Assembly: GCA_026874595.1 (NCBI GenBank)
Contig: CM049313.1
Coordinates: 13,203,508 to 13,267,507 of the forward strand
Origin: Sipunculus nudus
Taxonomy: Eukaryota > Annelida > Sipuncula > Golfingiida > Sipunculidae
Direction of reading: 5' to 3'
DNA: 64,000 nt
The number at the start of each line of letters is the position of its first letter. Positions within the stretch are counted from its first letter, which is position 1. The notes below the pieces were generated by a model, which saw nothing but the letters and a program-made list of their open reading frames with translations, ran no database searches and had not been told where the DNA came from. Position numbers and translations under genes: made by a program. Positions 12,654 to 63,197 of the stretch are shown piece by piece.

Positions 12654-13898
12654 ATGAACGGCGCCACCCCGCCCGTAGTTTCGGAGAGTCTCCGAGAACT
12701 ACAGTGGAAGGGGTTGGTGGGAGCTGGCAGGTATGGCTTGGTCTATAAAGCCTTCTGGCCAAAGCTGAATCGGCTCGTGGCCATTAAAAGGCTTGAAGGA
12801 GAACTAGACCACGAAAAATGTTTGCGTGAAGTCGCAATATGGGCCAAGCTGGACCATCCAAACATCGTTAAGTTGTACCACACGGATGTCGTGGATTACA
12901 AAAAGGGACACAGTTTTGGATTTTTAGTGTCACTTGTGATGGAGTACGCGCCGAACGGTTCGTTGTATGACTACCTCAAACAGAAGCAGAAGCAATGTAA
13001 ACGTTTGAAGGAAGATAAAATAATCAAGTGGTCGCACCAACTTGCACAGGCGCTCCACTACTTGCGTTCTTCATCCATCATTCACAGAGATCTCAAATCG
13101 TCAAATATCGTACTTGACGAGAAATACAACGTGAAACTGTGTGACTTTGGGTCTTCTCGTTTCATGTCCAGGTCGAGGTGCGTCTCGATGCACGGTACGT
13201 TTGCGTGGATGGCTCCGGAGCTTATGAAGGGCCAGATCATTTGCAGCATGCCGGACATGGGCTATACGTACTGCGACATATACTCTTTTGCGATGGTTCT
13301 TTGGGAAATGGTAGCACTAGAAGTGCCATTCAGAGACTTAGATAACGAATTTCAAATAGTGTTTGCTGTATGTCAACATGGCGAACGCCCGGCCATGCCC
13401 CCTCACTGTCCGGAATATCTGCGTGATCTGATTGAGGCTTGCTGGGATGAAAGTCCAGCAAGACGACCGTCGACCACGGAAATATTGCATTGCCTTGATA
13501 AGAGGAACAGTAAAAACATACGTGAGAGAAAAATGAACTCCCCAGATCTAAAGAAACCAAATGTGGGAGGTCTAGAAACGATACCCGAGTCTCCAGTCTG
13601 TGACAAATCAGAACTTTGCTGGTCAAAAATTCTACCAAAAAGTGAGGAGGTAAATGAGAACACTCCAACCAAGCCGAGCAGTGATGAACCCAAAGCCGAC
13701 GTTAAACCAGCAGCTATAACCAGGAACCGCAGGGCAGTAACGCTGGACACCAGTCGTCCGAACGCTGACAGAAGCCGCCAGAAAGCTCGTGACGCCCTGG
13801 CAACCAGAAGACTATCACTTCCGGAAGAAGAGAAGAATTTAGCGCTGATGATTGGAGCACCGGGGGAGTTCGTGGGCAGAGGGCTCTCGTCAGCTTGA
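12654..13898 (+). CDS. MAP3K-like (TKL group) serine/threonine protein kinase, intronless, 414 aa
   Basis: Predicted cytosolic kinase. Seen: glycine loop GAGRYGLVY (23-31), VAIK with catalytic Lys45, probable alpha-C Glu59, HRDLKSSN with catalytic Asp146 and Asn151, DFG at 164-166, activation-segment end GTFAWMAPE (181-189), CDIYSFAMVLWEM around Asp208, and RRP at 270-272. All key residues are present, so it should be active. The HRDLKSSN and GTxAWMAPE pattern is typical of MLK/DLK/ZAK/TAK1-type MAP3Ks, known to phosphorylate MAP2Ks. No SAM, leucine-zipper or SH3 region follows. The tail (about 285-414) is polar and basic, with an RRLS site at 385-388. The start is the first in-frame Met after an in-frame TGA at 12585-12587, with A at -3. 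The absence of introns suggests a retrocopy or a lineage-specific single-exon gene. The exact orthologue is uncertain. Confidence 0.93.
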   Translation: MNGATPPVVSESLRELQWKGLVGAGRYGLVYKAFWPKLNRLVAIKRLEGELDHEKCLREVAIWAKLDHPNIVKLYHTDVVDYKKGHSFGFLVSLVMEYAPNGSLYDYLKQKQKQCKRLKEDKIIKWSHQLAQALHYLRSSSIIHRDLKSSNIVLDEKYNVKLCDFGSSRFMSRSRCVSMHGTFAWMAPELMKGQIICSMPDMGYTYCDIYSFAMVLWEMVALEVPFRDLDNEFQIVFAVCQHGERPAMPPHCPEYLRDLIEACWDESPARRPSTTEILHCLDKRNSKNIRERKMNSPDLKKPNVGGLETIPESPVCDKSELCWSKILPKSEEVNENTPTKPSSDEPKADVKPAAITRNRRAVTLDTSRPNADRSRQKARDALATRRLSLPEEEKNLALMIGAPGEFVGRGLSSA

Positions 13899-39321: not shown

Positions 39322-39409
39322 TCACAAATTGTCCTGGTGCTCCCACAAATCTTTCTCGTAACCCTCATGAACGTGATCCAACAAGACTTTACGACGGCTC
39401 TCACAGTAT
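39322..39409 (-). CDS. ARIH1: ARIH1 terminal exon with stop codon
   Basis: One base completes Arg, then [28 protein letters not shown] and TGA (39322-39324). Acceptor TTTTCAG. The human protein ends LWEYIED, so only the last few residues differ. Confidence 0.94.
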
Positions 39410-42400
39410 CTGAAAAGATGAAAACACTGAATGTCACTTGCATCCTTCATTTCATTTTCCTTGCTTACAGTATTATCGTTTGTTTTTACTTGACGCTAAT
39501 CTACATGTTAGCAGACCAGTTTCATAGACCAATTTCAGGATGTGATTAAAATTAGAGTTGATTTACAATGCAAAGTCAACCTATCTGGATCAATACTAGG
39601 TCTACAAGGCATATAAATGTGGTTCAGCCCTTTGTCTTGGGTCCTCTCACAGAATACCACCGATTCACCACCATTCAGCAGACTGGTGCCATGGGGCATA
39701 ACATAACAAGAGCACCGCAGGAGTACAAAATACGCCCACTGAACTTATTGACCTTTGACTTTATAAAATATGCAAACAACTGAACCCAGAGGAGTAACTT
39801 TAATAATCTAATATTCATATTGTCAGCAAAATCCATCAAATTCCTAGTTATCACAGCCATACCAAAAATATCAGACCCACCACTGGTCACACATATGATT
39901 GTTTCAGCGGGCGGGGTGCATGTATTATATTGCAGCGTTCACATATGATTGTTTCAGCCTGCGGGGTGCATGTATTATATAGCAGCTGGGTGGGCCAGGA
40001 GGTTAGCAGTGATGATACAACACCTGACAATCGCCCTTGCTTACTAGGACATGCACCCAACACACCAGGTCATAACAGGTGCTGCGCAGACCATTGTATG
40101 TACTCTGTGAGAGGCCAGTGGCTCTGTATATACTACAAAGCATCTCTCACCTTAATAAATATACATTATTACAATTAGGCAATATTATATTGGTTAATAT
40201 TTTTGTTGGGTTTCAGGAAAACCCATCAGATGTTTTGGAAGTCAACATGGCGCCACCAAACTCTAGTGACCTCTGACCTAATGAAATATCCATGGCATAT
40301 GCCAGGAATTGAACTTTGGTCAGATATTATACTGGTTAACATTTCTGTTGAGTTTCATTAAAATCCATCAAATTCCTGGGAAGTTACCATCAGCATCACC
40401 ACAAAGCAGCAAGGTGAGTTCTGACCTCTTTAAATAAGTCTGGACTATGCGTAGAATTGAACTCAAGTGAAATGATCTGTTGGCAAGTAGTCATAATGAG
40501 TTTCATGAAAATCTATCAATGCCCTGGTATGTTATCACAGTGACACCAAAAGTTAACAGACAGTAAGAATGCCATAATATGTCCTGTCTGAGATGGGCTT
40601 ATAATAATAATTATAAAATGATTTTACCTGTATTTATCTTGAACTTTCTGTTTAATGTCTGCCACCATGTCAGACGTGATGTCCCTTTCTAAGTACTCAG
40701 ACAGCTGCTCTGTGGCGTTCTCCAAGTCTTTCTGATTATCCTGTAGAGCATAAAAAATGTAAATGAACACTTGTAGGGTCAGTATGTACAGCTTCTTTAC
40801 AAGGATAAACCACAGTCTCTTGAATTATTATTTGTGGCTGATATATGGCCCAAAACAAGGTCAATTCTGATATTAACAGAGAATCCACGAAGTCTGTTCC
40901 AAAGGAACGGAAGTACGGAGAGTCCAGTGTTTGGGTACACACAGTGATTTGGTGTTTTAAGCCATTACTTTCGCTGTTCAGCTGGAATACATATAGAAAA
41001 CCATATAAATACTGTCATTTGTGATCTTTTCTTCCTACCTGCTGCTCAAAGCTGCAGTAAGATTTTGATGTGAAATATATACAGCCGTTTCAAATCAGTT
41101 AAATTCTGAGTTGACAGATCACCCTTTGCTCACCTGCCATGTTTACAGAAGATTCACAGTCCCGCACAGAATGAAGTCATCATCACTAATTTGTTGTTCA
41201 TGACTTGATTCATTACAAAATGTAAGCATATCAAAAACAGAATACACTGGTACCTTTCCACAGTTACAATTTTTTAAAGAACAGACTGGTACCTACCTCA
41301 AATATTATAGACTGGTTGTTCTTACGCAGGAAGAAAGCAAACACATAGGTGTACATGAGCATCTGGCGACACTGGCATAGCACATCCACGGCTTTCTTTA
41401 GGAACTGTACCTCGATCCACGACATGTTATGTTGCTGCATCTCCTCCATCTTTAACTTGACTGATGCATACAGCTGACGAAAAAATACCGAAAACAATGT
41501 TAAGGTCAACAGCTTACAAAAAATACCGTAAACAATGTAATGGTCAACAGCTGACAAAAAATAGTGTAAATAGTGTAAAAATCAAGAGATGACTATCATA
41601 TACTGCAATTAATGTTATGATCACCAGTTGACTAATACATTTGATAAATAAAATAACATTCGACAACTGACAAAAACAAGGGACCCATGGGTCACGGCGC
41701 TCAGCTGATCGTGATTGGACTATAAATGTTTCTCCACTGTGATCCTATATCGAGTCGATAAAGCTTGTGAATATCATGTACATGTTGGGCTATTATAAAG
41801 GAATTTAATGTAATATGTGAGTAAATGAAAAATGAAATTACCTGACTGATGGATTAATAGAGTCAAATAAAGTGGTTTATTTTTTATTTATTTAGGAGGG
41901 GTTGAAAATTGTGATATATTTGAGCAAATATGAATGCAATGACAGCAGTAATAAGCAGTAGTAGAATGGTAGTCTGCAAGCGTTCAATTTGACAGATATG
42001 ATGTTATGATTAACTATGCTGATGAAGTGATTTATGAATATGTGACTGTATGACACAATATCTCTTTAGTCTTGACAAGGTACATTATTGTGATGCCCAC
42101 TATGTCTACATATTACACAATATTGACATAATTTCTGGCATGTAAATAGGTACCTATGGATGAATAGTTATACAAACTAGAATACGGGTAGACGACAAGC
42201 GACTACGTGTATCCGCCAAAATCAGAGAAGGACGGGTGAAGTAAGGCATGGATTGAGTGGCAAGGGGATATAGAGTTACATGTGTTAAATATTAGAATGG
42301 ATCTCTGCCACATAAACATGATTGTAGGTGGCGCCACCTGTTATTTGAAACTATCCAAGATATATACACAAGCAAAATTTCATGTGGAAAAGTCAAACCA

Positions 42401-45993: not shown

Positions 45994-48900
45994 AGACGGA
46001 CGGACGACGGACCATGACAATAGCTCAGATGACTTATAGTCAGCTGAGCAATAAAAACATTTATAACTTTATGATAACCAGTTGATGAAAATCTACCATA
46101 AATAACAATGATCATCAGCTCACAAAAAAATCCATAATGTAATGATCATCAGCTGATGAAAAAATATTTTTAAAAAATTTAATGATAAACAGCTGACAAA
46201 TAAATACCATAAAGATTAAACCAAAAGCTGATGACAAAATTTAAAAAAAAAAAAACAAAATCGACAACTGACAAAGAAAACATCAAAAACTCAATCACTA
46301 ACTGACAAATCAATACTGCATTAACTAAATAATAAATATGAGCAAATGCATGGAATTTATGTCCCCCTGCTTTCGCCTCTTGTTGTCCCCTGCTTGCCTT
46401 ACAAATATATTTTAGATTTTATTGTCCCTGAAGATGTCCCAACATGTCATAGTGGCATGGTGTTTTAGTTTTCATTGCCCCCGGGAAATGTCACAACATT
46501 AATTTTTGGTTGTGAATTGGACCAAAGGGGAATTGTGTTTTTGTTTTTGAGCTGCTGATCATAAATTGTGAACTTTGGGTATTCCATAATACGTCCAGTC
46601 ATAGAAGAGCATATAAAAAGTTGAAAATCAACAGCTTATGAAAATATCTTTAAAACCTTATAACAACAGGTAATGAATGAATACTGTTAACACTTGTAAT
46701 TCAATCAGATAGAGAAGTAAAATAAATAAAGCTACATGTATAAGTAGCAAATACACAACTGATGAAAAATAACTTGAAACTAGAATACGGGTAGTGGACA
46801 AGCGACTACGTGTATCCGCCTAAATCAGAGTGGAACGGGTGAAGTGAGGCATGGATAAGTTGCAAGGGGAAATAGAGTGAAGTGTTGCATATTAGCATGG
46901 ATGTCTGCAGCCAAATTGTGTATGAAGGTTGCCCCCCCTACCACAAAATCCAGAAAGCTGTCCCAGTTGTATACATATGCAAAATTTAAGGCAGATAAGT
47001 CAAACCACTACATGTATATGAGTGATTTTAGCCCGTGGCAGACAATCAGATGGACGCTGAGCAAAAATGGTTGCAGGCGACGGCACCAGTTTTGCGTATA
47101 ATAAAGAGCTATGTGAGAACTCTACACATGCAAAACTTTGGCCCAATCGGTCAACGGTTCCAAAGATATGAGCTTGGATGTCTGCTGCATAAACTAGAAT
47201 ACAGGTGGCTCCACCTGTCATAAAATCAAGAGAGCTGTCGGGGATGTATAAACCTGCAAAATTTTAGCCAGATATGTCAAACCACTGCCGAGATATGAGT
47301 GATTTTATCCCATGCCAGACAAACAAACAGGAGCTGTGCAAAAATGGCTGTAGGTGGCGCCATTAGTTTTGCATATGTTATAAAGCTCTCCAAGGGCTAC
47401 ATGTGTGCAAAAAAATTTTCCTGATAGGTCAAACGGTTCCCGAGATATGAGCTTGGATGTCTGCAGCGTAAACATGAATGTAGGTGGCGCCACCTGTCAT
47501 TAAATCAGAAAAGCTATCCAGGATGTATACGCATGCCCAATTTCAGGTGAATTAGTCAAGTCACTGCAGAGATATGAGTGATTTTAACCCAAGGCAGACA
47601 AACAGATGGACACTGTGCAAACATGGTTGCAGGTGGCGCCACCATTTTTTGCATATGTTATAAAGCTCTCCAAGGGCTACATTTGTGCAAAAAAATTTTC
47701 CTGATCGGTCAAACGGTTCCCGAGATATGAGCTTGGATGTCTGCAGCGTAAACGTGAATGTAGGTGGCGCCACCTGTCACAAAATCAGAAAAGCTATCCA
47801 GGATGTATACGCATGCCAAATTTCAGGTGAATTAGTCAAGTCACTGCAGAGATATGAGTGATTTTAACCCAAGGCAGACGAACAGATGGACACTGTGCAA
47901 ACATGGTTGCAGGTGGCGCCACCATTTTTGTGTATGTTATAAAGCTCTCCAAGGGCTACATTTGTGCAAAAAAATTTTCCTGATCGGTCAAACAGTTCCC
48001 GAGATATGTGGGTTTATGTGTGGAAACAGACACACAAACGGACGCAGAGCGCAGAGGAAAGGTCAGAGGTCAAAACAAAATCAGGGCGCAGCAGTTCACA
48101 TGTGACCCGAACATAATCCCGGGTTTCGTAAAATTCCGCCCAGCGGTTACGGCGGAGTTCTCCGGAAACCTACGCGGCGGCGGCGGCGGCGTTCAGCTGA
48201 AAACATAGTATCTGCAAAACTCTGTTTTGGCGGATACAAATATCTCCAGCATTTGAATAGACAAAAAAATTTAAATCTGAAGTGGAAATAAAATTTTTCA
48301 TATGACACTAAACACAGCTGATTTTGGCTGAGACTTAAGATTACTCACCTTATGTTCAAACTTGAGACTCTGCATATGGTTCATATAGCGGTTGCAATAA
48401 AATAAGTATCGTTGTAGGGCAGACCTCGACTTCTGTAATCACAAAACAACACATAGGACCAAGCTGACATCCACTTTGTGTTACAGTTGAAAGATCATAT
48501 ACAAATAATGGACCCTGTTAAAAGTGATTACAAGTCAGGAAACAATTCCCATTCTCCATCCTTCAGCACAGTTTAAGCAAATTTATTTAACTCCTCAGGC
48601 AATCCCTCAGCACAGTCTTGGCTGCTAATAGTCTTGGTCTTGTACACAGTCTAGCTGCTGACACAGCCCTGGTCTTGTACACAGTCCTGGCTGCTGACAC
48701 AGTCCTAGTCTTGTATAGAGTCCTTGTCTTGTACACAGTCCTTGTCTTGTACACAGTCACTGGTGCTGACACAGTCCTGGTCGTGTACAAATTCCTGGCT
48801 GCTGACAGTCCTGGTCTTGTATACAGTCCTGGCTGCTGACAATCCTGATCTTGTATGCAGTCACTGCTGCTGACACAGTCCTGGTCTTGTATACAGTCCT

Positions 48901-51900
48901 GGCTGCTGACAATCCTGGTCTTGTACACAGTCTAGCTGCTGACACAGTCCTGGTCTTGTACACAGTCCTTGCTGTTGACACAGTCCTAGTCTTGTATAGA
49001 GTCCTTGTCTTGTACACAGTCCTTGTCTTGTACACAGTCACTGGTGCTGACACAGTCCTGGTCGTGTACAAATTCCTGGCTGCTGACAGTCCTGGTCTTG
49101 TATACAGTCCTGGCTGCTGACAATCCTGATCTTGTATGCAGTCACTGCTGCTGACACAGTCCTGGTCTTGTATACAGTCCTGGCTGCTGACAATCCTGGT
49201 CTTGTACACAGTCTAGCTGCTGACACAGTCCTGGTCTTGTACACAGTCCTTGCTGTTGACACAGTCCTAGTCTTGTATAGAGTCCTTGTCTTGTACACAG
49301 TCCTTGTCTTGTACACAGTCACTGGTGCTGACACAGTCCTGGTCGTGTACAAAGTCCTGGCTGCTGACAGTCCTGGTCTTGTGTACAGTCCTGGCTGCTG
49401 ACAATCCTGGTCTTGTATGCAGTCACTGCTGCTGACACAGTCCTGGTCTTGTATACAGTCCTTGTCTTGTACACATTCCTCGTCTTGTACACAGTCATTG
49501 CTGCTGACCCAGTCCTGGTCTTGTACAGTATTGGCTGCTGACACAGTCCTTGGCTTGTACAGTCCTAGATTTGTACACGGTCCTTGTTTGTACACATTCA
49601 TTGTCTTGTACACAATCATTGCTACTGACACAGTCCTGGTCTTGTATACAGTCCTTGTTGCTGACACAGTCCTTGGCTTGTTCAGTCCTTGTCTTGCACA
49701 CAGCCCTTATCTTGTACACAGTTCTGGTCTTGCACACATTTCTGGTCTAGTACACAGTCCTTGTTTTTTACACAGTCCTGGTCTTGCACATAGTCCTTGT
49801 TTTGTACACAGTCCTGGTCTTGCACATAGTCCTTGTCTTGCACACATTTCTGGTCTTGTACACAGTCACGGCTGCTGACAGTGTCCTGGTCTTGTATACA
49901 GTCCTGGTAGCTGACACAGTCCTTGTCTTGTACACAGTCCTTGTTTTAACCCTTTACTGTTTGTATTTGGTTGTCACAAAACACCCCCCTTACTGTTCAG
50001 ATTAATTTTAGGTTTCTCACACTTTGAATTTTGACACACTGTACATTAATGTTATGACTGATAACTTTATCAGTTTTTGGTGTATCCTTGTGAAATTTTC
50101 AACACATTTTACAGAGATACCAAGCAAGAGGTTAATGACTTAATCAATCATAAATTTCACATATATCTAATAATAGAGCCAGGTAAATCAGGTATATTCA
50201 GGTAAGTAGTGTCTTTGTTGTTTTAGCATATTTGTACATAAATGTCTGCAGTATATCCCAGTGAAGACATTGTAGAATTTAGGACCAATAAGGGAATTAT
50301 CATCCACTGGTACCAGGTGTATTGTCATGAAAGATCTAGGTAAAACAGGTTAATGAAATATGATTAAGATTATTAATGTTATGTAGGTGTGGAGTGCTGA
50401 AATAAATTAGACAAAACCATATATGATTTGTTCCAAGAAATGTATAAGAATAATAATTGTATATTTAACATGAAATATTATGTTGATTTCAAATAAGGAT
50501 CAAATTGCCACATCCCACCTTTTGGGGTATGGAAAACTAATTAAGACCAGGTGAACTTCAAAGAAAAGTGAAAAAAAAATATTCACAGATTTACTCATCA
50601 AATATGTATAAAATCCAATGGAAAATCGCCAAAAGTCTGACAGAATGGTAAAATCAAACATTTCTACATGTTTTTCTCCCTTTATAATGTTTACTTGGAT
50701 CGTTTTGGTACTCCCGGTAAAGTCCATATCACTTTTATGTTGCCCGTGACAGAACATACAGGGAAATCCCCCTCGCATTGCATTATGGTTATCAAGTGTC
50801 AAAACGATGTCAGACGTCATTTTTATCTTAAAACACAAGCAAATATTCACGAATTTGAGTAACTAAAGTTTATTGAACATTATTTTATGTTTATTTTGTT
50901 CAAAACATGTACTGAAAGTTGTCAAAGCACGATGTCTATCAAGCAGCAAGTCCGACTGCTGCCATCTTGAAAATTAATGACATTGCTCGTCCTTCATAAC
51001 AGGCAAAATAAACATAGAAAATGTCTTAAGGAATGAGAAATATTCACATTTTAAGTCCAAAATGATTATAATTTAGATAGATACCAATCTTTTGTGGAAG
51101 TTTGGTATGGTTTATTGTCATAACAACGTGGCACGGTCAGCTGAAACGTCGCGTTTGTTGACATCCGGGGTGTCAATTGCCGACGCCATTCAACCAATCG
51201 GCTTTCCAACAGAGTCTAAATTAGAATTTTATGAATATTTATGAGGATTTCCCTGGTGAATGAATAAATAATTAACAACTTTAGGGTAGGGGTTTCCTGG
51301 AACCTTATAGAACCGAAATTAATCGTGTCCAACGTTAATTTTACCTCCAAGACCGAGCTAAAACCGGGAGTGTCCCCCCTGAGTGCGTTGTGGTGTGTTA
51401 TGAACAGATGAGGGGATGTCACATGACGGGGCTTAGAGTGCGCTGTCAGATGTTAAAGAGTTAAACACAGTCCTGGTCTTGCACACAGTCCTTGTCTTGT
51501 ACACATTTCTGGTCTTGTACACAGACATGGTTGCTGACACAGTCCTGGTCTTGTTTACAGTCCTGGTTGCTGACACAGTCCTTGGCTTGTACAGTCCTTG
51601 TCTTGCACACAGTCCTAGTCTTGTACACAGTCCTGGTCTTGTACACAGTCCTGGCTGCCGACACTTTCCTGGTCTTGTAAACAGTCCTGGCTGCTGACAC
51701 AGTCCTGGCTGCTGACACAGTCATCAAATCCTACTTACCTCTTGAGCATCTCTGGCCTTCTTTGCTTCATCCTCATCATAACGATTACAGTTGTACCTGT
51801 ACAACACACAGTTATACAAATTTTATACATAATTATACAAATATGTGCAACTTTGCTCGTATAGTCCTGAGGTGGCACAGTGTTATACTAATAGAAGTAT

Positions 51901-54900
51901 TACAACCTTGCTGATACATGACACCTAACACCACCATTTTAATGAAGCATCATTAAAGTCACCTGTCAAAGTTCATAAGTTTTTCTTACAGGTTGCACAA
52001 TAAGAGATCACATGACCTAAGTGTAATCATGTGACCCTCCTACTGTCACATTATTCCAATGAAGGATTGCAGAAAAAATAATGAAAAGGGATTACTCCTG
52101 AGCAACCAGTTTTACCACTTCTTATAGACTGAACTTTCATGACTACTTAGGGATTTTTAAAGACATACAAACCATAATACTTATATCAACCAATGTTAGG
52201 ATACTATTGGTACTCATTTTTGAACTCAACTGTGAACCAAAGCCTTCCATTCAACAAATGTCAAAACCTGAACGATAAATTCTATAATAAAAACACAAAT
52301 GCTCATCATTACATCAAATACCATGTAATTGAAATTTCCGCCAAATGTTAAGAAGGATACACTTATTTACTAGCAGAATTATAACTGATTCATCAAAACT
52401 TCATTATGATATACAAGTAATCAGTCTCAGATTTAATATCTATACTTCATTTAATGACATCACAAACTGATCATGAACCTAGTGCATAAGGAACAGATCA
52501 TCAGATCTGTTACCAGGGCCTACACATTTCACACAGTCTATACATGCCTGTACCTAATAAACTTAGTCTATACTCAAGGATGCTGCAGCTGCGAAAAATT
52601 AACATTATATTTATATCACAATTTTCAATGACATAAAGGAACTATTCTGGTACAGTATAGTGCATTCTGAACTCTACATAAGAAATTTGTTTAAACTGTA
52701 CATCATTAGAAAATGAAGGAAGGGCAAGGTGTTTGGCAGTTTAATCACTTTGATATAAAAAGTAGATTATTAGGCCAAAAAAAAAAGGTTTGGTTCTCAG
52801 CAACTTATTTCAGAAATCAATGCGGGTTGGCCGCTTTTTATATAAAATTTTTTAAATGTCAAATGATAAGGGAAAGCATGATAATAACAGATTTATTTTA
52901 CTAAACAAGTATAATCACTACATAACAGGAAATTTCTATAAAAATTTTTTGATTTTATCTTCTTGAAAGAAATGTCTGAGCAGCTGGAGCACAAAACTGG
53001 AAAGTTTCTATTGAAAATCAAAATAAAAATTTTTGATGCGGGCAGTGCCTGAGAACTATACCTTTTATTTTTTTTGGCCTTACAACTTTCAACTGGCTTT
53101 CTAAAGATATCATTCTGTAGTTTATTTTGCAAAATTGTCACCAGGTTCAAAATTAATAATAAGCTTATCAAGGCTGCTGCGTTAACAGACCAGTTTAAAT
53201 GACTAAATTTCAGGTGTACCTGACCATCAATCTGTGAAAGCTTCAACTCTCATGATCAGAGCTGAGAGGAAATATTGCAATCAGAGGATAACAATAAAAC
53301 TGACTGATTTCAAATTTCAACATGCAAGTGAAATATAATACTATTGTATCTGTTATGACTGTAATATGTATATTAAATTATTATATGTTGACAGCAAACA
53401 CACATTCCCCATGCACTTAGGTCTCATGCATATCCATTCCTGTCTGACATCATTCCTGAGAGCATTATTCAAAGTCCCTGATAGTCCGGCGTACCATATT
53501 TCCTGTATTATCTGATTGGTGCAGCTGACTATCACTAGACTAGGGACAGAGTTGATGTCTAGGTTTTGAGGGAGGTCTCTTGAGGGAGGTCTTGAGTATT
53601 AGGACCTTATTAGTGGTTCTTTAAAAGGACCTTGTAAACACAAGGTGTGGCTATAAATAGATGTGCAGCCATAAAATGGGGATCTTCAGTACTTACTGAA
53701 ACATCATACTGAATACACTAAACAGATAATACTTATATAGGAATAATGAAGTTTTATATTTTGTACTAATTTCTCAATTTATATTTAAATTTATCATTAC
53801 ATCAGTCAAGAAGACTACTTTTTCTATTTTTAATCATTATTCATAATCAAAGGAGACTTCAACTGACATCAGTTTAATAATTTTAATTCAATATCAGCTT
53901 AAACTCAGAGTCACACTGATTTTACAATTACAGTGACGGATCTAGGGGAAAGGGGTCAAGGGGCTCCTACCCCCCCCCCCCCCTTTTGATGCCAAAACAA
54001 CATTTTTTAGTTTCAAACCAAATTTTGCGACCCTGACCCCCTCCTTCCCTGACCTGAGGACCTTTTATTAGATTTTCTTTCAATCTTCCTGGGCATGACC
54101 CTTTCCTTTCTAAAATCTTGGATCAGCCCCTGTTTTAATACTTCATATTCAGACTACGCTACAGGTACTAATAATCTTTAGCAGCACATTGTCTGTATAT
54201 ACTGTATGCCTGAAGCATATATAAAGTGCTTTTTTGAGGCATTAAGTGTCCTCCAGTATAAATGTCCTCCAGTATTAAATACAAATAATTGTTGACCAAT
54301 TTACTTTATTAGCTGTTTTTATTCAAGGATTTTGTATGTATCATTTACTGCACAAAACTCATTGGCAATTAAATATAAATCCATGATACTCGTTACGTCA
54401 GCCAAACTAGCCTACGACTGGACAAAAATCTGTAAACTTGTTACATTTTAAATGTTACATGGAGTCTGGACAATGTGAGCTAGATTACAGTTTACCGATG
54501 ATGCAACAGACTCACCATAGTGTTAGCTTATGGGCAATCATTAATTTGTTAAATGTGATATAAGTATACATGAACAGTATTTTAGCACACACTGTTAGTA
54601 TCACATTAACATGCCTTGACGCATATTTTCCAAATCATTTCAAATTATACAAGCAAGCAAAAAGCACCTGAAACCTCCCCAGTCAGTAGAAATAAAACCA
54701 ATTCATGTTAGCTGTTTATGCCTTAAAACCTTGTTCACAAAAGCCAAACCAGCCATTGATTACTGCAGAAATATGTATTTCCCCTTAAATTAATAAAGTG
54801 TAAAAAATCCATACATCAGCTGAATGTTCCTTTAAAGTACATAAAAAGTCCTAACAATGAGGACATATTGGTATACTGCAGAGCAGCAGTACAGAACAAG

Positions 54901-57900
54901 CCCTTACAGTAATGTTAAGTTTGTGGCAAACCCAAGCACAGAACATAGCAATCATAAATACTGGAATCCAAAATTAAGCACCAAAGGGGTTCCTGTAGAA
55001 AGTAATGCAACCTGCATACAACTCTTTTAAGCATGGGACTTAATACCTGCAAAAAATCTTTTGGTCCTTTTATAATCTTGAGACTTTATTTCAGCTTTCC
55101 TTTGACAAAGAAAAGCATTGCACCCCAAACAGTTAATTTAGTTCACCTATACCTTGATTAATGATTTGTGATCAACGGCTGGTTTGGCTTAAACAGAGAA
55201 CTTTAAATATCTGAATTATCAGCAGTTTACGAACTTGAAACAAACACCGTAAACTACCCAAAAAAATTCTGTTTGTGCCTCTGGTGTACCTACCAAGATG
55301 AACCATGTGGCTCCCAGGGCCCGAGGCAAACCCAGCAGAAGTCGAACCTACACTTTTTACAGACCATGTGGTTACAGCCCCCGTCCTTCTCGATGGTAGC
55401 CACACACTGCGGACACTCCTAGCGGGCAACATTAGACCAAGCGTTAACGGTAGGGCCCTCCCTTGCAGCAACACACACATACATACACACAAGACAGCAA
55501 ACATGTGTCCCTGTATCAAAAGCCAGTCATGATCACTACTATGTTAACAGAACACTTGACATTTACAAGCATATTTGACATTATCAATGGTCATCTTATT
55601 TTTTTTTCTGCTTACCAATCATATTATAGCCCTTTATTACTTTATCCACCCCTGCAAAATTATAATATTACTTTTAGTGGTACCATAAAACCAAAGCTAC
55701 TTGGATATTGGATCATTATGACCAAACGTTAAATGGTGAATGTCAACTGTTACATAAGGGACAGGGTCATAAACTTGTAGAGAAAACTTCTGTCAATATT
55801 AACAGCTACATAATTCCTTTTATGAAAGATCTGCTTGAGATTAATGAATATGCAAGAGGAACTTTTACTCATTTGAACACTGTTATATAACCAATTCAGC
55901 AAGATTTAAAAGCAAGTTTACAAAGAGTTATTTAGAATATTCAATACCTGGTTAGTGTCAATAATGCACTGTATATATAAAACCTATTATAAAAAAATTT
56001 GTTTCAGCAAAAAGTTTACATTAAGTACACTGGTTAATAGTGGTTTTAAGTGTTTATGACTGCAAAAGTGTTTTCTGACATGGTAAGGCATCATATAAGG
56101 CGTAGGAAAAGGTACAGCTGTATGACCATTGCAACAAAAGTTCTAAGAAATGGAAACCCTTCCTTTCCCCACTGTTAAAACTGTCGATGAACAGACTGAC
56201 TTGAGACACACAAGATACATGTATACTTCCTTGGAGCAAGGCAGTGCAGAGAAACGTTCCAGACATCAGCACTCTGGTGGCAAGCTATGGAACTAATCAA
56301 CCCGGATCCCACTAAACTTCTCTCTGCTCATACTTTTTGTGTTCTGAATCTCTCAGTACAGTAAATCCAACATTTCTCCATATACATTACATTTGATATA
56401 ACATATTCAACAAGAGCACCGCAAACGTGCATAATACACCCATCGTGTATCTGGTCACCTGTGACCTCATCAAATATGCGTGAATTTTTATGAGAATGTA
56501 ATTCAGGTGAGAAACTATAAGTAAATATGTATAATGGGTTTCATGTAAAACCCTAGGATTTTTGTAAGTCACCAAGGTACCTCCAAGTGTGGTGACCTCT
56601 GACCTCATTAATTATGCATGGATTTTGCTGGAATTAAAACTTAGGCGAGATATTTTGTTGATCAACATTTCTGATGGTTTTATCAAAATCCTTCATATTC
56701 TCCATAAGTTATCTTGATGACACCAAGAAGTAGCCGAGTGACATGTGAACTAATTAAATATGCGTGGACGTTGCCCATAATCAAACACTGACAAGATAAT
56801 CTGTTGACAAGTACTTATGGTGAGTTTCATGAAAATCCATCAAAGCCCTGGTAAGTTATCATGGCGAAACTAAAAGTTAACGGGCGGATGGACATACCAT
56901 TATACTCCTGTCATATACTGACAGGCATATAAAAATAACTTCCCTCTCCATTGTTTAAGCTGTAAGTAAATATACACATAATTTTTCATAATTTGCTTTG
57001 TATATAATTTATTGCAATAATAAGATATCACCACAAGCTTTTTTCTGAAAATTTGTATATTTCAGTGTTACCTCACAGACAATGCCACCTGTTGGCAATG
57101 CTTGTGACTAACCATTTTTTCAGTAAACATGTTTGTATGAGCAGGCAAGTTTGAATGGGATGCAGGTTTTGATGACATACACATGAACATTGGTGGTCAG
57201 CAGGTGCAAGCAGCTCTAGTTCCACTACCACTCACCAGGAGGAACCATGAGGCTCCCAGGGGCCCAAACACACCCAGCAGAAATCAGCTCGGCATGCCTG
57301 GTTCTTGCAAACCATGTGATTACAGCCTCCATCTTTCTCTATTGTCACATGACACTTGGGACACTCCTAAGCGAACAAATGGTGCCCCAAATTAGTCACA
57401 TGACAACATGAATAAACATGAGTTGTGAAAATTTACAACATCTGACTGGCAAGCAATGAATGACAGGATAGCAAAACATATAAAACTTGACATGACTTTG
57501 TTCTATGTGACACTGCATATAACTGACAATGAACAACACCAAAACATAAGTCCATGAGTTGAAAACTCAACCTGCAAATGTAAAACAAATATTCAATAAC
57601 GATATAATTCACATTACTCACATATATCTGTCAGCCCATTACAGCCCAAGACTTCCATGGGATCTATGAAAATGTTTGGTCTTGGACATAAATCTGACAT
57701 ATGATTGACGATACTGAAGTTTCACCAGCGGAGAAACTAATCCATGTCTTAACAGCTTCAATATTTCAAAAATTAAAGTTTTCTTGGATAGAATCAACGT
57801 TTAAAAAGTTAAAATTATAGTTTTCTGGGACAGAATCAATTTATCTCCAGAAATTATCAGGCCTGGAGTTTCGTCATGTGTCAAGAGATGCTGTGAATGA

Positions 57901-60900
57901 CAATTAAGGCCACCTGGTGGACCAACTCATTAACTAATATTTCAAGCAGGATGGAGATGTCGCCATCATGTGTATAACTGCTTGAAATCAACAGCTACAA
58001 GTGGCCGTCTCAAACACCTAAGTCATGACATTTGGAGGATCTCATTAGATCTTAATGGTTTTATTGACTCTCTGAGATCTGCTGGATTCCAAGAGGCACA
58101 AATGTCATGGGATACATCGTGTCCAGATTTTGCCTATTTTACAGGTTATTAAGCCATAAAAAAGAAGATGTTCTATACGATTACTGTTCCTATTTTTCAA
58201 GAATCAAATTTGAGTTGGTCAATAAGCACAAGGTCCTTGGTAATACTCACTTACTGGTGCTCTTGCCTCAATCACTTCAGAGAAATCATTACATGTAATG
58301 ACAATGCAGAAATATCACTGATAGAGGTGGCATATAAGTAGATTAGTGTAGTTCATCTGCATCACTTTCCTAAATAAATGTTACACATATTTGTTTCCTT
58401 CCTATCAGCTGACAAAATTCAATGTATTTTTTCTTGTCTTGACCCCTGAATATATGCTCCCGATTTTTAGGTCCTGAGCCCACCAAATAATATATTTTAT
58501 ATGTGGCCTAATTGGCCTTACCACCACAGCCCTTGTGCTCCACCTCTTTGACCTGGTTATGCTAATAAGCCCAATAAAAGCTCCTTCACAGGAAGCTTTC
58601 CATGCCTGTGGCTGTTTATAAGACTATAGTAACAAAAGAATGGTCGCATATGACCGTCACATTGACTGACGTCATCCGCTGGAATTGCTATTTCTGTGTT
58701 CTCCAGTGATGAATTTATCACAATTACTGTGAAGTATTTCCCCTTATTTGGGATTATAAGTCTCATACTAATTCAGTGCAGGGTAAGACATTATTATTCA
58801 CACGCAGAACAGCTCCTGAAAACCTTTGACCTAATGCAAGGTAAGACATAATTATTCACACATCAGAAAATTTTAAACCGTCTCCTTTGCATAAAAAATA
58901 TTCTAGAAAAACATGTGGACAGGGGTACTGGTACAGTACGTGTTCTGTTTTGAAAGTCACCCATATTATGCAAATTCTGCGCTTGTCAGGTGATTGACTG
59001 TTTACACTGCCAACCTGATTGGTTGCTCACCACTACTCTGCTCATGATTATTCATTGAATGAATATGTGATTAAAGTCACATAGAGTTCATGGTTCAGTA
59101 AATTGTTAGATTCAGTGTCAGGCCACCATAGCACATACCGTTGCACTCTCTGTCAACAAACAGGATAATCTTTGGAAGTGGTGCTGAATAAATCCTTACA
59201 ACATGTGACATCATTTCTCCATGGTTACAAGCCTTTCCAATCATGTGTGATATTTCAGCAGCCATGGCAACAATGTCAACAAATCAACAAACATGTCTAG
59301 CACTTCAGTAATGAGGATAGGACCAGGAATTCATGGACGACGGTTTAGTTACCATGAAGAAAGGATCTGTTAGACCCAAATTTTGTGTGACAATTATATA
59401 ACCTTAGCAACAGGGCCAAAAGATCAACAAATGAGACCCAAATTATGAGTGACAATTACATAACCTTAGCAACAGGGCTAAAAGATCAACAAATTATGTG
59501 ACCATGATTGATAACCATGGTAACAAGCCAGAAAGATCCTCCCATTTGTGACACCAGTTACCATGGTAATATATGTATAAGAGCCAGACAATGTTTGGCC
59601 AAGGTTTCCATGGTATAAGGACCCCATAAATCAATATAAAATATGATTCTTTAACAAACGGTCAACAGGGCCAGATAGGTTATCACAACAAGCATATCAC
59701 TAGCAAGTAACCAAGGCCAAAAAGATCCAAGCAACTGCCAGGCAATGGTAACTGTGGCAACCACAGCAGCAGGGCCCATACATCCTCACAATGTGTAACA
59801 TTTTGGAACTGTGGCAATGAAGTCCCAATAAAACAGTTTCAGTAACTACAGCAAGTGTGCACCACATATGCAACATATATACATGTAAAACAGCAGGAGG
59901 AAACTTATAATTTTGATTAATAGGTCACAGGACAGCTGCAATATCAATCAAGAGTAAGCAAACATAATCTGCAAACAATTTAAGGGAAGTCTAGAGCAGG
60001 CTAAAAACGACAGCATTATTTTCTCTGTTTAGGATGCCTGGAATTCCAGTCAGGAGGTTGTATTACAAATAGTGACAGCTGCTACTGGAGGCTTCACATA
60101 TTTTATATTAACATGTTTCTAAGTCTGGATATATGAACAGAAGCAAATAAATAAAACTTGTAAATTAGTATAGAGATCTAGACTAAACTATTATAGTCTT
60201 AAGTCATCAATTAAAAATAACATTAAAATTAATCAAAACCTGACTTTAATAAATTTTTTTACAGAGAGACCTTATATACTTTACCCTGTGCATTCTCTTG
60301 TGAAACAATGGACAATTTTAATCCATTCCTCATTCCCCAAGTCTAATTACCTTTGTGTTGGCAGCGATCCAGTTTGATGTTTCACTGTCATCGTCACATT
60401 TTTTTATCCATTTCCTAAGCCAATAGCACTTGACAGGGTCATGCCAGTTCTCACCGCATGCAAAACTGAAATCACAACATCATTATTCATGAGGAAACCA
60501 AAATAATAACATCAATCTTTCTTTTTTTAAAAGACATCTTCTTGCTTTATTGCTAATTTGACTTTACATTCACTCTGCTCTTCAAATGGCCAGAAACCCA
60601 TCTTACCATTAAGTAACTGTATTATTGTTATTCCTCACTTAGTGCGACAACCTTTCCCATTATTAACTCAAACCAGTGCTTTCTACAGTCCATTTAGAGC
60701 ATGGCCAATTTAATTTAATTTTCCTAACAACACTGGAATTCATTCCTCATTTAGAACATTAACCAATTCAAACAATATCTCTTTGTAACACTACTTTCAT
60801 CAACAATTAACATCTTTTAGAGCACCCATCTGCTCAAATTTTCTGTTATAACAATGCTTTCCCCAATTTACTTGACATCCAAAATGCAACCAAAATTAGA

Positions 60901-63197
60901 TTCTATGGAACTTAAAATGAAGGCAACTTAAAGTCTGTTTTATGTACTTACATACAGACTCCTGTTTGAGAAATTTATAAACTGTACGTTCACGTAACTA
61001 ACCAAAACGTATGTCCACAGGCACATGTGACGGGCTGAGCATCATAATACTGTACTCGAACCACATGGCCGCAATCTGGTGTCGGGCACCAACGTAGTAA
61101 CCGGTTACACTGAAGATAAAATGGAAAATCTTGTAAATTACATAATCATTGTGAAAACTACAGAACCCTGTCATTTGTCCGTCTCTCCAGACAGCCTTAC
61201 ACTTTTCTTAAGTGAAAACAAAGCATACACCTAAAATTTTCAGTTGTAAAAAGGAAGGAATTTTTAAGATGGCAGTCTGATAGTCATACTGGATTTCTGA
61301 AAGGTCTGAAACTGGACAGTACAAATCTTCTCATAGAAAATAATTTTAGTTAATATTTCTTCTTTCTTTATATTTATTGACAGTATTGTTTGATTTCAAT
61401 AAATCTGTTATTCATTAATTCTTATATATTAAAATTTCATAACATTTTTCATAATTCACTGTATATTACTCTTCAAATTTACAAACTTATGCTGTATGAA
61501 AGGGTAATAACTACTTAACAAGTAGCAATATTACATGCTTAAAGATTTCATTATATGGTTCATACACAGATCAGGAGTTAAATTAAACAGAGTTGATACT
61601 CACCCCTACAAAGCTATTCGTTATAATATGTTGATATTTCAATTTTACCCTTGGGTCTGTAATTAATTTCCTGCAACAGACAGAAATGCTTATTGAAAAG
61701 ATTATAAGTACTGGCTATAGCCCTGTGAAATGTTATGCAATGTTTTATTAGGTGTGTGTCATACATGGGAATCACAAGGTGAAGCCGAGTGAATGCCATG
61801 ATTAACACACACCAAGTAAAATGAGCATATACACAAGAGTAGTATTTAGGGATATCACTCCCAAACTTGCACTGCTTTCTGAGAAAGATAATCATATAAA
61901 ATCAATATGGTGTCTATGAGCGAGAAAAAGGTCATTCAGGGCCTCAAATAGGAATTTATTCAAATGACTAGGCAATTTAGCTAAATATTGTGTTTTTGAA
62001 TGAAAACAGAACTCGCTTATAATACTTTCCAACAACTATTCTTGAAATACCTCTTGATCAGAAACAACTATTTGCGTGGCCTTAGCCCAGAGAGCCAGAC
62101 TAGCAGGTGATACGTAACATTGTACAAAGTTTACCCCACAGGATTCTGGCTCGAACTGACTTTGAGAGAACAAGGGGGCGTTTTTTTTTTTTGCAGTTTA
62201 TCACCATGCACTGATCAGTGCTTATCAAACAATTTGTAAAGTGAAAAAGACTGCCAAAGTGTACATAAAGTTGTATTGTTGAAAGGACCTCATACAACTC
62301 CAATTTTCACTTACATGACAGTAGCATCATCAACTAAGATATCACAACCGTGGGCAGCACAGGATATCGTCTGTAAATAAATCAAAAGGATTAACAATTT
62401 TAATTCACAAATATTAGGCCAAAATAAAAAGAAGTATGGTTCTCCGGCACTTCTTTTTCAGAAACTAATTTGGGTGGGTGACATTTTGTTTTACCTTTTT
62501 TTGATGTTTCGAAAAAATGTCATATGATCAGGGAAAATCATGAAAACATAATTACTGTTTTGCTAAACAAGCAAAAGCACTACATAACAAAAGATATCTT
62601 ATCATACATGTATTATTATATCTTCTTGAAAGATGATAATCAAAATAAAAAGTTTTGATGCAGGGTGGTTAAAATTGAAATGGGCTGGTGCCTGAGAACC
62701 ATACCTTTTAGTTTTTTTGGCCTTAAGCCTGCAAATTCAAGTATTTCAAGACATATCCCAACTATTACTTAGGCATTATAATTATATACCCAAACTTTCT
62801 GGGATATAGTAAATATGAACCCATTATTAAATCTTACTGGTTCAATAAACTTCAAACCCCATATCTTAATAAACCTCACAGTCTCAGTACTTTGAAGTCA
62901 GTTTAAGAACATCTGATTAAGAAAAAGATGAAACTTTCTTTGTAAATTTATAAAAGTAGAGATTAAGATATGAGGCATTGATTGTTAATTATTTTAAAAA
63001 ATAAGTAGACTCAGTCTGCTAAACTTGGGTGATTGTTGACAATCTATCAGCTCATCGTACCTGGCTCATGCCTTCATCCATTATTTTAGATGTAAGGTAC
63101 TCACCTGGCCCATGCCTTCATCCATTATTTTAGTCGTTAGGTACTCAGCCCAGCAACGGGTACAGAACCTGTGGCCACACTCCAGTCCTGTCATCAC
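39322..63197 (-). CDS. ARIH1: ARIH1 (Ariadne-1/HHARI) RBR E3 ubiquitin ligase, 3' eleven exons, partial at 5'
   Basis: RBR-family E3 ligase that takes ubiquitin from UBE2L3-type E2s onto a catalytic Cys and, in animals, works with neddylated cullin-RING ligases. Coding exons (transcript order): 63105-63197, 62315-62370, 61604-61670, 61003-61109, 60351-60465, 57236-57366 (or 55294-55418), 51739-51796, 48349-48432, 41297-41473, 40628-40740, 39322-39409. All junctions are GT-AG and phases match, giving 362 aa plus stop (360 with the alternative exon). Domains: second half of RING1 ([12 protein letters not shown]), IBR (CNRLLRWCP to [14 protein letters not shown]), Rcat with GGCNHMVC, and an Ariadne domain ([37 protein letters not shown]). 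Human ARIH1 has 557 residues, so about 190 are encoded beyond the right edge. Introns are loaded with repeats. Confidence 0.95.
39690..40600. mobile_element. Dispersed repeat of the AACAAGAGCACCGC type in an ARIH1 intron
   Basis: Begins near AACAAGAGCACCGC and contains repeated segments with GACCTCT/GACCTAATGAAATAT, ATTGAACT, GATATTATACTGGTTAACAT and CCATCAAATTCC. The same order of motifs recurs at 56396-56935. It carries a 50-bp tandem duplication at 39889-39988. No coding content; limits are approximate. Confidence 0.55.
39889..39988. repeat. 50-bp tandem duplication
   Basis: Two adjacent copies of a unit starting ACACATATGATTGTTTCAGC and containing GGGGTGCATGTATTATAT, differing at a few bases. 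Confidence 0.85.
40628..40740 (-). CDS. ARIH1: ARIH1 exon: Ariadne domain
   Basis: 37 codons plus two bases of Arg: [37 protein letters not shown]. Acceptor CTCTACAG, donor GTAAAA. Confidence 0.94.
41297..41473 (-). CDS. ARIH1: ARIH1 exon: Ariadne domain core
   Basis: 59 codons, phase 0, including [20 protein letters not shown] and [19 protein letters not shown], almost identical to human ARIH1. Acceptor CGTCAG, donor GTAGGT. Confidence 0.96.
42172..43432. mobile_element. Helitron-like element with AGGTGGCGCCACCT palindromes, copy 1
   Basis: The left end has CTAGAATACGGGTAG, ACAAGCGACTACGTG and TATCCGCCAAAATC. The right end is a strong hairpin, TATCCGCAAAAC-TTC-GTTTTGGCGGATA (about 43398-43425). 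In between are tandem units of about 290 bp, each carrying the 14-base palindrome AGGTGGCGCCACCT or a close variant twice (for example 42326-42339), with AGAGATATGAGTGATTTTA and GGTTCCCGAGAT as markers. Frames inside are artefacts. It lies in the ARIH1 intron between exons 48349-48432 and 41297-41473. Confidence 0.7.
45949..46008. repeat. GACGGACAGACA simple repeat
   Basis: Tetranucleotide GACG/GACA repeat, interrupted, inside the composite element; explains the Val-Arg-Pro-Ser frame on the - strand. Confidence 0.9.
46777..48241. mobile_element. Helitron-like element with AGGTGGCGCCACCT palindromes, copy 2
   Basis: Same family and orientation as 42172-43432: left end CTAGAATACGGGTAGTGG, ACAAGCGACTACGTG, TATCCGCC; right hairpin GCAAAACTCTGTTTTGGCGGAT. 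It differs by carrying a GC-rich segment with a (CGG)n tract (about 48010-48200) before the right end. Confidence 0.7.
48349..48432 (-). CDS. ARIH1: ARIH1 exon: Ariadne domain
   Basis: 28 codons, phase 0: [28 protein letters not shown]. Acceptor GATTACAG, donor GTGAGT. Confidence 0.94.
48590..49945. repeat. 18-bp minisatellite with 281-bp higher-order repeat, larger block
   Basis: Sense-strand (-) units alternate between two related 18-mers, GACTGTGTACAAGACCAG and GACTGTGTCAGCAGCCAG, with variants. A higher-order period of 281 bp is visible from the marker TTGTATGCAGTCACTGCTGC at 48851, 49132 and 49413. As 18 is a multiple of three, long frames stay open on both strands (for example 209 codons at 49038-49667); they are not genes. 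The array lies in an ARIH1 intron. Confidence 0.93.
49950..51460. mobile_element. TTAA-flanked piggyBac-like non-autonomous element inside the minisatellite
   Basis: TTAA borders both sides (49946-49949 and 51461-51464). The element begins CCCTTTACTG and its reverse complement begins CTCTTTAACA, giving short inverted termini of the YCYTTTA type. Minisatellite sequence stops exactly at the left TTAA and resumes exactly after the right one. Removing the element and one TTAA rebuilds a normal repeat junction. The 1.5-kb interior encodes no transposase that I can recognise. Confidence 0.8.
51465..51727. repeat. 18-bp minisatellite, smaller block
   Basis: Same units as 48590-49945, in the same orientation, separated from them by the TTAA-flanked element. 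It ends about a dozen bases from the splice donor of the ARIH1 exon 51739-51796. Confidence 0.92.
51739..51796 (-). CDS. ARIH1: ARIH1 exon: end of Rcat, start of Ariadne domain
   Basis: One base completes Trp, then [19 protein letters not shown]. Acceptor TGTACAG, donor GTAAGT. Supplies the last Rcat Cys. An 18-bp minisatellite begins about a dozen bases after the donor. Confidence 0.93.
52773..53079. mobile_element. PIF/Harbinger-like MITE, copy 1
   Basis: About 307 bp, from GGCCAAAAAAAAAAGGTTTG to a reverse-complement end GGCCAAAAAAAATAAAAGGT, flanked by TTA (52770-52772) and TTA (53080-53082). A TTA target duplication and termini starting GGCC fit PIF/Harbinger. No transposase. In an ARIH1 intron. 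Confidence 0.75.
53083..55293. other. ARIH1 intron sequence
   Basis: Intron between the version B Rcat exon and the exon at 51739-51796. Apart from the MITE at 53930-54131 no further exon, RNA or repeat was recognised. Confidence 0.5.
53930..54131. mobile_element. MITE with CAGTGACGGATC-type ends and a poly-C tract
   Basis: Left end CAGTGACGGATCTAGGGG; the reverse complement of the right end is CAGGGGCTGATCCAAGAT. An internal poly-C tract lies at 53971-53984. Related ends were seen at about 373-412 and 9693. About 200 bp, non-coding. Confidence 0.6.
55294..55418 (-). CDS. ARIH1: ARIH1 Rcat exon, version B (shorter, Cys-x2-Cys), putative mutually exclusive exon
   Basis: 41 codons plus two bases of Trp: [41 protein letters not shown]. 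It is homologous to the exon at 57236-57366 and lies 1.8 kb downstream of it in the gene. The catalytic Cys (GGC) and every zinc ligand are kept. Between the third and fourth zinc cysteines two residues are missing (KK in place of KNQA), giving the C-x2-C spacing known in ARIH2 and HOIP. Acceptor CCCGCTAG, donor GTAGGT. Length 125 nt, phase 0 in, 2 out, so it can replace version A exactly but cannot be added to it. There are no stops or frameshifts. Expression is untested. Confidence 0.88.
56396..56935. mobile_element. Dispersed repeat of the AACAAGAGCACCGC type, second copy
   Basis: Starts CAACAAGAGCACCGCAAACG and shares the series GACCTCATCAAATATGCGTG, GTTGATCAACATTTCTGATG, CCATCAAAGCCCTGG with 39690-40600. 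It ends near CATACTGACAGGCATATAAA-like sequence. It lies between the two Rcat exons. Confidence 0.55.
57236..57366 (-). CDS. ARIH1: ARIH1 Rcat exon, version A (canonical Cys-x4-Cys)
   Basis: 43 codons plus two bases of Trp: [43 protein letters not shown]. The catalytic Cys is residue 15 of the exon (GGC, equivalent to Cys357 of human HHARI). The next two ligands are Cys20 and Cys25, spaced x4 as in human ARIH1 and parkin. Acceptor CGCTTAG, donor GTGAGT. Length 131 nt; phase 0 in, 2 out. Confidence 0.95.
57367..60350. other. ARIH1 intron upstream of the Rcat exons
   Basis: About 3 kb without a supported exon. It was searched for a third Rcat-like exon (HMVC/FCWVC motifs) and none was seen. 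It includes a 62-bp tandem duplication at 59373-59496. Confidence 0.5.
59373..59496. repeat. 62-bp tandem duplication
   Basis: Two adjacent copies starting GACCCAAATT and containing ACCTTAGCAACAGGGC and AAAAGATCAACAAAT, with a few substitutions. Confidence 0.85.
60351..60465 (-). CDS. ARIH1: ARIH1 exon: IBR end and linker to Rcat
   Basis: Encodes [20 protein letters not shown], then [18 protein letters not shown]. Acceptor TTTCAG, donor GTAATT. Ends in phase 0, directly ahead of the two alternative Rcat exons. Confidence 0.95.
61003..61109 (-). CDS. ARIH1: ARIH1 exon: IBR domain, first part
   Basis: Encodes [32 protein letters not shown] and HTF plus two bases of Cys. The IBR Cys ligands are visible. 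Acceptor TCTTCAG, donor GTTAGT. Confidence 0.94.
61604..61670 (-). CDS. ARIH1: ARIH1 exon: linker between RING1 and IBR
   Basis: One base completing Met, then [20 protein letters not shown] and VG. Acceptor TTGCAG, donor GTGAGT. Human ARIH1 has Glu where Gly is found at the last codon. Confidence 0.92.
62315..62370 (-). CDS. ARIH1: ARIH1 exon: end of RING1
   Basis: Encodes [18 protein letters not shown] plus two bases of Met. Acceptor TTTACAG, donor GTAAGT. Supplies the last RING1 ligands (SC-AAHGC). Confidence 0.93.
62417..62722. mobile_element. PIF/Harbinger-like MITE, copy 2
   Basis: About 306 bp, with GGCCAAAATAAAAAGAAGTA at one end and reverse-complement GGCCAAAAAAACTAAAAGGT at the other, flanked by TTA at 62414-62416 and 62723-62725. 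Same family as 52773-53079. It sits about 45 bases upstream (gene sense) of the ARIH1 exon 62315-62370. Confidence 0.78.
63061..63104 (-). repeat. 44-bp tandem duplicate of the 3' end of an ARIH1 exon, with its donor
   Basis: Matches 63105-63148 (the 3' 44 bases of the RING1 exon) with about six differences, and keeps a second GT donor (GTACGA) at the equivalent place. Reading on from the exon into it meets TAA after eight codons, so use of the second donor would truncate the protein. Confidence 0.85.
63105..63197 (-). CDS. ARIH1: ARIH1 exon: second half of RING1
   Basis: 31 codons, phase 0 on both sides, starting [20 protein letters not shown]. Acceptor CAG at its 5' side, donor GTGAGT. It carries Cys/His zinc ligands of RING1 (CGH, FCTRC). 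The 3' 44 bases are duplicated just downstream in the intron (63061-63104). The preceding exon, with the CQIC-type start of RING1, was not found in 63198-64000. Confidence 0.93.

Follow-up and report, generated by a model that had tools for sequence, protein, structure and literature searches.

A putative mutually exclusive pair of Rcat exons in the ARIH1 gene of Sipunculus nudus

The window, by which we mean the whole 64,000-nucleotide stretch of the Sipunculus nudus genome that was analysed, carries on its minus strand the greater part of a gene for ARIH1 (HHARI in human). The exons were placed one by one by tblastn using the human ARIH1 sequence, with borders set by phase and GT-AG, and the exon for the first half of RING1 was located by a CxxC scan. 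Besides the exon pair described below, the model contains 14 coding exons, ten of which lie inside the window between 63197 and 39322; the first four lie upstream on the same contig (C8), at window coordinates 91918-80859. Every intron of the model is bounded by GT-AG. The second half of RING1 is encoded by exon e5 (63105..63197), followed by e6 (62315..62370), e7 (61604..61670), e8 (61003..61109; IBR) and e9 (60351..60465), the last of which encodes the end of the IBR and the linker to the Rcat domain. Beyond the pair, e11 (51739..51796) encodes 19 residues, presumably including the final zinc ligand of the Rcat domain (Cys389 of the human protein), while the Ariadne domain is encoded by e12 (48349..48432), e13 (41297..41473) and e14 (40628..40740), and the C-terminus and stop codon by e15 (39322..39409). 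The UBA-like, RING1, IBR, Rcat and Ariadne regions follow one another in this order, colinear with human ARIH1, and the identity of the gene as ARIH1 is supported on this model.

The locus has several further features. The end of exon e5, including its donor, is tandemly repeated at 63059-63147 on the minus strand (44 bp, 2.0 copies, 91% match); the second donor, as read from the sequence, would shift the frame and lead to a stop, and the repeat looks like a young, non-productive duplication within ARIH1. The intron between e11 and e12 holds two blocks (48611-49941 and 51465-51710) of an 18/36-bp minisatellite (AGTCCTGGTCTTGTACAC), one of which begins about 29 nt past the e11 donor. On the plus strand, a 436-residue open frame without introns at 12588-13898 reads as what we take to be a protein kinase resembling MOS.

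Between e9 and e11, on the minus strand, lie two versions of the exon that encodes most of the Rcat domain. Exon A (57236..57366; 131 nt, 43 residues plus TG) is the canonical version; it shares 38 of its 43 residues with human ARIH1 and scores 93.9 bits to PDB 1wd2. Exon B (55294..55418; 125 nt, 41 residues plus TG) scores 73.6 bits to the same structure and is thus further from human ARIH1 than A, so that B would appear to have been the freer of the two to change. Both exons run from phase 0 to phase 2, and both are flanked by AG and GT and contain no stop; these properties, together with the coordinates, lengths and translations given in an earlier note on this DNA, were re-derived from the sequence and agree with it, as do the splice partners at 60351 upstream and 51796 downstream. 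The two are adjacent, internal and homologous (36 of 41 aligned residues identical), with similar lengths that differ by a multiple of three, equal phases and compatible splice sites. With either exon placed between e9 and e11 the frame is kept and full-length ARIH1 results, of 510 residues with A or 508 with B, each transcript being open from start to stop, whereas inclusion of both or neither leads to an early stop. With A and B joined the stop falls 322 nt before the last exon junction, and with both skipped it falls 420 nt before it. By the usual rule, mRNAs with such early stops are targets of nonsense-mediated decay, which is therefore predicted for both non-productive forms. The earlier note had taken this frame arithmetic as the signature of mutual exclusion. 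It does mean that a productive transcript can contain just one of the copies, but it is not independent evidence of regulated splicing, since any two copies of a phase 0-to-2 exon must have lengths that leave a remainder of two.

All open AG..GT stretches of 107-155 nt running from phase 0 to phase 2 were collected from the gene strand of 39000-92000 (n=377) and scored for similarity to A; A itself scored 270 and B 218, with the next best at -2, so that only A and B resemble an Rcat among these stretches. When the B peptide was searched against the 1.43 Gb genome, with only the best candidates scored, it matched itself (E 2.8e-25) and A (E 3.8e-19), and the remaining 28 of the 30 matches listed showed at most 58% identity, those inspected being other RBR-like sequences. 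These results, together with the 32 of 123 aligned nucleotides at which the exons differ and the unrelated intron sequence around them, led us to reject chance resemblance and an assembly artefact as origins of B. A second or processed copy of ARIH1, of the kind that would have proved splicing of B, was absent from the 23 matches of the full isoform B protein to the genome; among the matches listed, all those of at least 76% identity lay within the ARIH1 gene on C8 and the best elsewhere had 52%. Pattern matches in IMG/VR (48) and in GTDB contigs (33) included no confirmed relative, and an Rfam search of the window returned 0 matches.

The genome searches also turned up sequences outside the locus. 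Open frames of 1047-2139 residues at C7:43431753-44100532 and C5:10888579-69202120 (L003, L005, L016 and L017) contain eight RBR-like sequences that match ARIH1 at 25-32% identity, in most cases from RING1 through to Rcat; we read them as a putative family of large RBR proteins whose long exons are free of introns. Two similar Rcat-like exons (L014 at C1:56413987 and L006 at C1:56434594) stand 20.6 kb apart on the same strand and may be a further exon pair or belong to RBR genes in tandem. Nine matches to bacterial-type cytochrome oxidase subunit I, in frames of 577-578 residues, were found on C60, C61, C62, C66, C72, C74, C75 and C89 (L018-L020). A search of GTDB with one of them placed the best 80 of 582 loci at 52-58% identity without a clear group, and the assembly is likely to include contigs from a bacterial associate that has several related genomes.

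The divergence between A and B is strongly skewed towards silent positions. In an alignment of 41 codons, with the two-codon gap positioned for fewest differences, a Nei-Gojobori-style count gave 23.5 synonymous differences at 23.5 sites, which is saturated and leaves dS undefined, against 8.5 nonsynonymous differences at 99.5 sites (dN 0.09); 9 of the 12 comparable fourfold sites differ. At the protein level only five of the 41 aligned residues differ, and the sole change in length is a clean, in-frame gap of two codons (6 nt). A recent duplication is rejected by the synonymous saturation. Neutral drift of B away from A was simulated (n=5000) with varied shares of the synonymous change assigned to the B branch. 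Five or fewer residue changes were seen in 0 of 5000 runs if B took half of the change, when 77% of the simulated sequences contained a stop, and in 0.4% of runs at a share of 30%; the figure rose to 7% at 20%, 15% at 15% and 30% at 10%. The test loses power if nearly all of the synonymous change fell on A, and neutrality of B would be compatible with the simulations had B carried only 10-20% of it.

Other features of B point the same way as the skew. It scores above A on the Pfam profiles IBR_1 (58.9 vs 55.0 bits) and IBR (35.8 vs 27.4), with the order reversed on IBR_2 (45.6 vs 49.7). Its base composition (56% GC, GC3 0.68) stands out from that of its flanking introns (36% and 34% GC), which fits an exon under maintenance better than intron sequence in decay. 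The flanking introns share no significant residual homology or selector-like repeats, the best matches being one 13-nt direct (E 0.13) and one 12-nt inverted (E 0.31), and this lack of clear homology suggests that the duplication is old. We conclude that there is strong evidence, at the level of sequence, for B having been kept as coding sequence.

The three introns around the pair contain few pointers to how a choice between A and B might be made. The intron between e9 and A (57367..60350, minus strand; 2984 nt) has the donor AAG|GTAATT and the acceptor cgcttag|GAG, with a branch-like CTAAT whose A lies at -26; that between A and B (55419..57235, minus strand; 1817 nt) has the donor CTG|GTGAGT and the acceptor cccgctag|GAG, with a branch-like TTAAC whose A also lies at -26; and that between B and e11 (51797..55293, minus strand; 3497 nt) has the donor TTG|GTAGGT. 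An intron of 1817 nt is long for exclusion by steric hindrance, and inspection of the gene model by eye for U12-type donors, against the motif /GTATCC, found none. Pairing between competing introns showed no excess over shuffled sequences in a crude test based on whole-intron duplex energy, which covered the I9-I10 pair (-721 vs a shuffle mean of -726, n 12) and the I9-I11 pair (-1044 vs -1080, n 5). The acceptors of A and B are among the three of 15 that end in TAG, and their T content is the lowest of the 15 (0.35 vs 0.45-0.65), while their pyrimidine content is ordinary (0.60 and 0.65 vs 0.45-0.75). Acceptors low in T are frequent in regulated exons. A UG-rich stretch lies in the A-B intron at about 55491-55469, and of the nine TGTGTG hexamers that the three introns (8298 nt) contain, three fall within 150 nt upstream of B; this cluster was seen after the fact and would be only a lead towards a UG-binding splicing factor. 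Our best reading would be a regulated choice of acceptor backed by nonsense-mediated decay.

The differences that B would introduce into the protein are confined to part of the Rcat domain. In human numbering, in which E343 is the first residue of the exon (PDB 7b5l), B differs from A by K346Q, H348V, V349A and A369F, and residues 363-366 change from K-N-Q-A to K-K, which is shorter by two residues and includes one replacement. The 13-residue segment around the catalytic cysteine, with Cys357 and His359, is identical in the two exons, and both also carry Asp at position 370, where human ARIH1 has Glu; residue 370 therefore does not separate A from B. The seven zinc ligands assigned to the Rcat exon are all unchanged in B. 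The cysteine pair of zinc site 1 is spaced Cx4C in A, as in human ARIH1, and Cx2C in B, a spacing that other RBR proteins also show; B is in this respect a variant form of Rcat although it belongs to an ARIH1 gene. The claim of the earlier note that the two products would differ only in the catalytic domain is thus right, with the refinement that the catalytic loop is identical and the differences lie in the flanks of zinc site 1. Structures of the human ARIH1 Rcat (PDB 1wd2, 2m9y, 4kbl and 7b5m) contain the same domain, the same catalytic Cys and His and the same C-terminal 13-residue stretch. All seven distinct ARIH1 chain sequences that were matched align to A over 42 residues with Cx4C spacing, unlike B with its Cx2C and five replaced residues; the matched stretch of human ARIH2 is 40 residues, as in B.

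Published work on these enzymes bears on what such changes might do. The catalytic triad of HHARI consists of Cys, His and Glu370, and loss of any one inactivates the enzyme in vitro, although in cells parkin depends less on the Glu (PMC3940038). In active ARIH1 the ubiquitin tail is gripped by Rcat residues (PMC7904520), and the residues changed in B are not named as tail-gripping in the portions of that report used here. In ARIH2 the catalytic-cysteine loop is held by a groove of the Ariadne domain, and ARIH1 can be superimposed on ARIH2 in the way that Ariadne and Rcat are arranged (PMC8460447); on this basis isoform B should remain autoinhibited and switchable.

Other readings of exon B were weighed against its being an old duplicate kept by selection. 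That B is a dead or dying duplicate, never spliced into mRNA, would fit its TAG acceptor with low T content; however, synonymous saturation with only five residue changes, the absence of a stop, intact GT-AG sites and an in-frame gap, together with family-profile scores comparable to those of A, would require a very recent death after a long functional life, and we regard this as unlikely. The stop that A+B splicing creates 322 nt before the last junction would also suit a mainly regulatory role, in which A+B, or B in some state, produces NMD-sensitive mRNA and lowers the dose of ARIH1. A poison exon need not keep the Rcat fold, though, and the constraint on B at the level of residues points to a translated product, so that a role of this kind seems rather improbable. 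Each donor is followed directly by an in-frame stop (TGG TGA and TGG TAG), as might be expected if A and B belonged to separate transcripts made by alternative promoters or polyadenylation, but each exon has an internal acceptor matched by a donor, and it is the exons further downstream, common to both forms, that encode the Ariadne domain and, presumably, the last zinc ligand; we consider such an arrangement very unlikely.

The Cx2C spacing also raised the question of capture or gene conversion from ARIH2 or another RBR gene. The Rcat domains of human ARIH2 (TRIAD1) and CUL9 have the length of B, and B scores above A on both (55.1 vs 50.8 bits and 36.8 vs 25.9 bits, respectively). Nevertheless, B matches ARIH1 far better (73.6 bits), keeps a 15-residue ARIH1 sequence and sits inside an ARIH1 gene with ARIH1 exon borders, whereas the exon of the ARIH2-like locus L015 (named by resemblance) appears to end after GGCNHM. 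The differing exon borders disfavour an origin from ARIH2, and capture or conversion from any RBR gene strikes us as extremely improbable; most simply, the ARIH2-like zinc loop of B would have arisen through changes in ARIH1 itself.

Exclusive exons that arose by tandem duplication have been described before (PMC5740500, PMC9741552 and PMC3228551). The human examples, like A and B, are adjacent, homologous, similar in length and equal in phase (PMC5740500, PMC9741552), and length, phase, splice sites and freedom from stops are the features by which such exons are recognised (PMC3228551, PMC5740500). Among genes whose clusters were validated, one comparison reports frame incompatibility for 20 (71%), with NMD on joint inclusion (PMC5740500), as predicted here for A+B. 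Exon 10 of the alternative oxidase gene (AOX) in the oyster Crassostrea virginica offers a closer parallel: it is also a tandem exon duplicate in a single-copy invertebrate enzyme gene, the choice of exon changes residues near the active site while key residues stay, and one copy is canonical and the other diverged (PMC5589949). The AOX exon is terminal, however, and its variants have been demonstrated at the mRNA level, where they shift when the animal is exposed to air, whereas the ARIH1 exons are internal, coupled through the frame and known here from genomic sequence. The term ARIH1 is absent from PMC9741552, as are the words ubiquitin and ligase from the main text of PMC5740500, and among open-licence full texts we found no paper linking ARIH1 with exclusive exons or exon duplication, although isoform records in databases may list B. 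The earlier note had considered this a way of switching an E3 ligase that was not known to its author to be described; the splicing class is known, and searches of open-licence papers brought up no report of it for ARIH1.

We therefore favour, with fair confidence, the reading of B as an old tandem duplicate of the ARIH1 Rcat exon that has been kept by selection as an alternative to A, the two forming mutually exclusive exons. It is probable that S. nudus can produce ARIH1 in two forms by choosing one or the other, and from the earlier proposal of two enzymes the identity of the gene, two complete isoforms differing only in the Rcat exon and the apparent retention of B as coding sequence all stand. 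The spliceosome would pick the acceptor of either A or B, and wrongly spliced mRNA, whether A+B or skipped, would be cleared by nonsense-mediated decay, making the choice mutually exclusive at the level of protein. Isoform B is likely to be an active ligase, given that Cys357 and His359, the acidic residue 370, the seven zinc ligands and the whole cysteine loop are unchanged. Autoinhibition and E2 use would be kept, and the rebuilt face at zinc site 1 would be likely to alter the handling of the ubiquitin tail or of the acceptor site on cullin-RING substrates. A bolder version, in which splicing swaps the catalytic face of ARIH1 to give an active E3 isoform with an ARIH2-like zinc loop and a different acceptor geometry (another lysine, or serine/threonine) on cullin-RING substrates, in a tissue- or stage-specific manner and from an exon pair ancient in the clade, is possible but doubtful.

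ARIH1 acts in priming cullin-RING substrates, and its solved human structures contain a single Rcat. A second Rcat shaped by natural selection within one and the same protein offers a clean test of the zinc-site-1 face, since the rest of the enzyme is identical. Mutations in the Rcat are reported to be able to alter which acceptor site is modified (PMC10657180), and a role for B in selectivity is thus directly testable. The A/B pair is a real and well-supported candidate in an unusual and testable place. If B is expressed, the cell would change the catalytic domain of an E3 by splicing and not by gene duplication; if the bolder version were true, mutually exclusive exons would select the chemistry of an RBR ligase.
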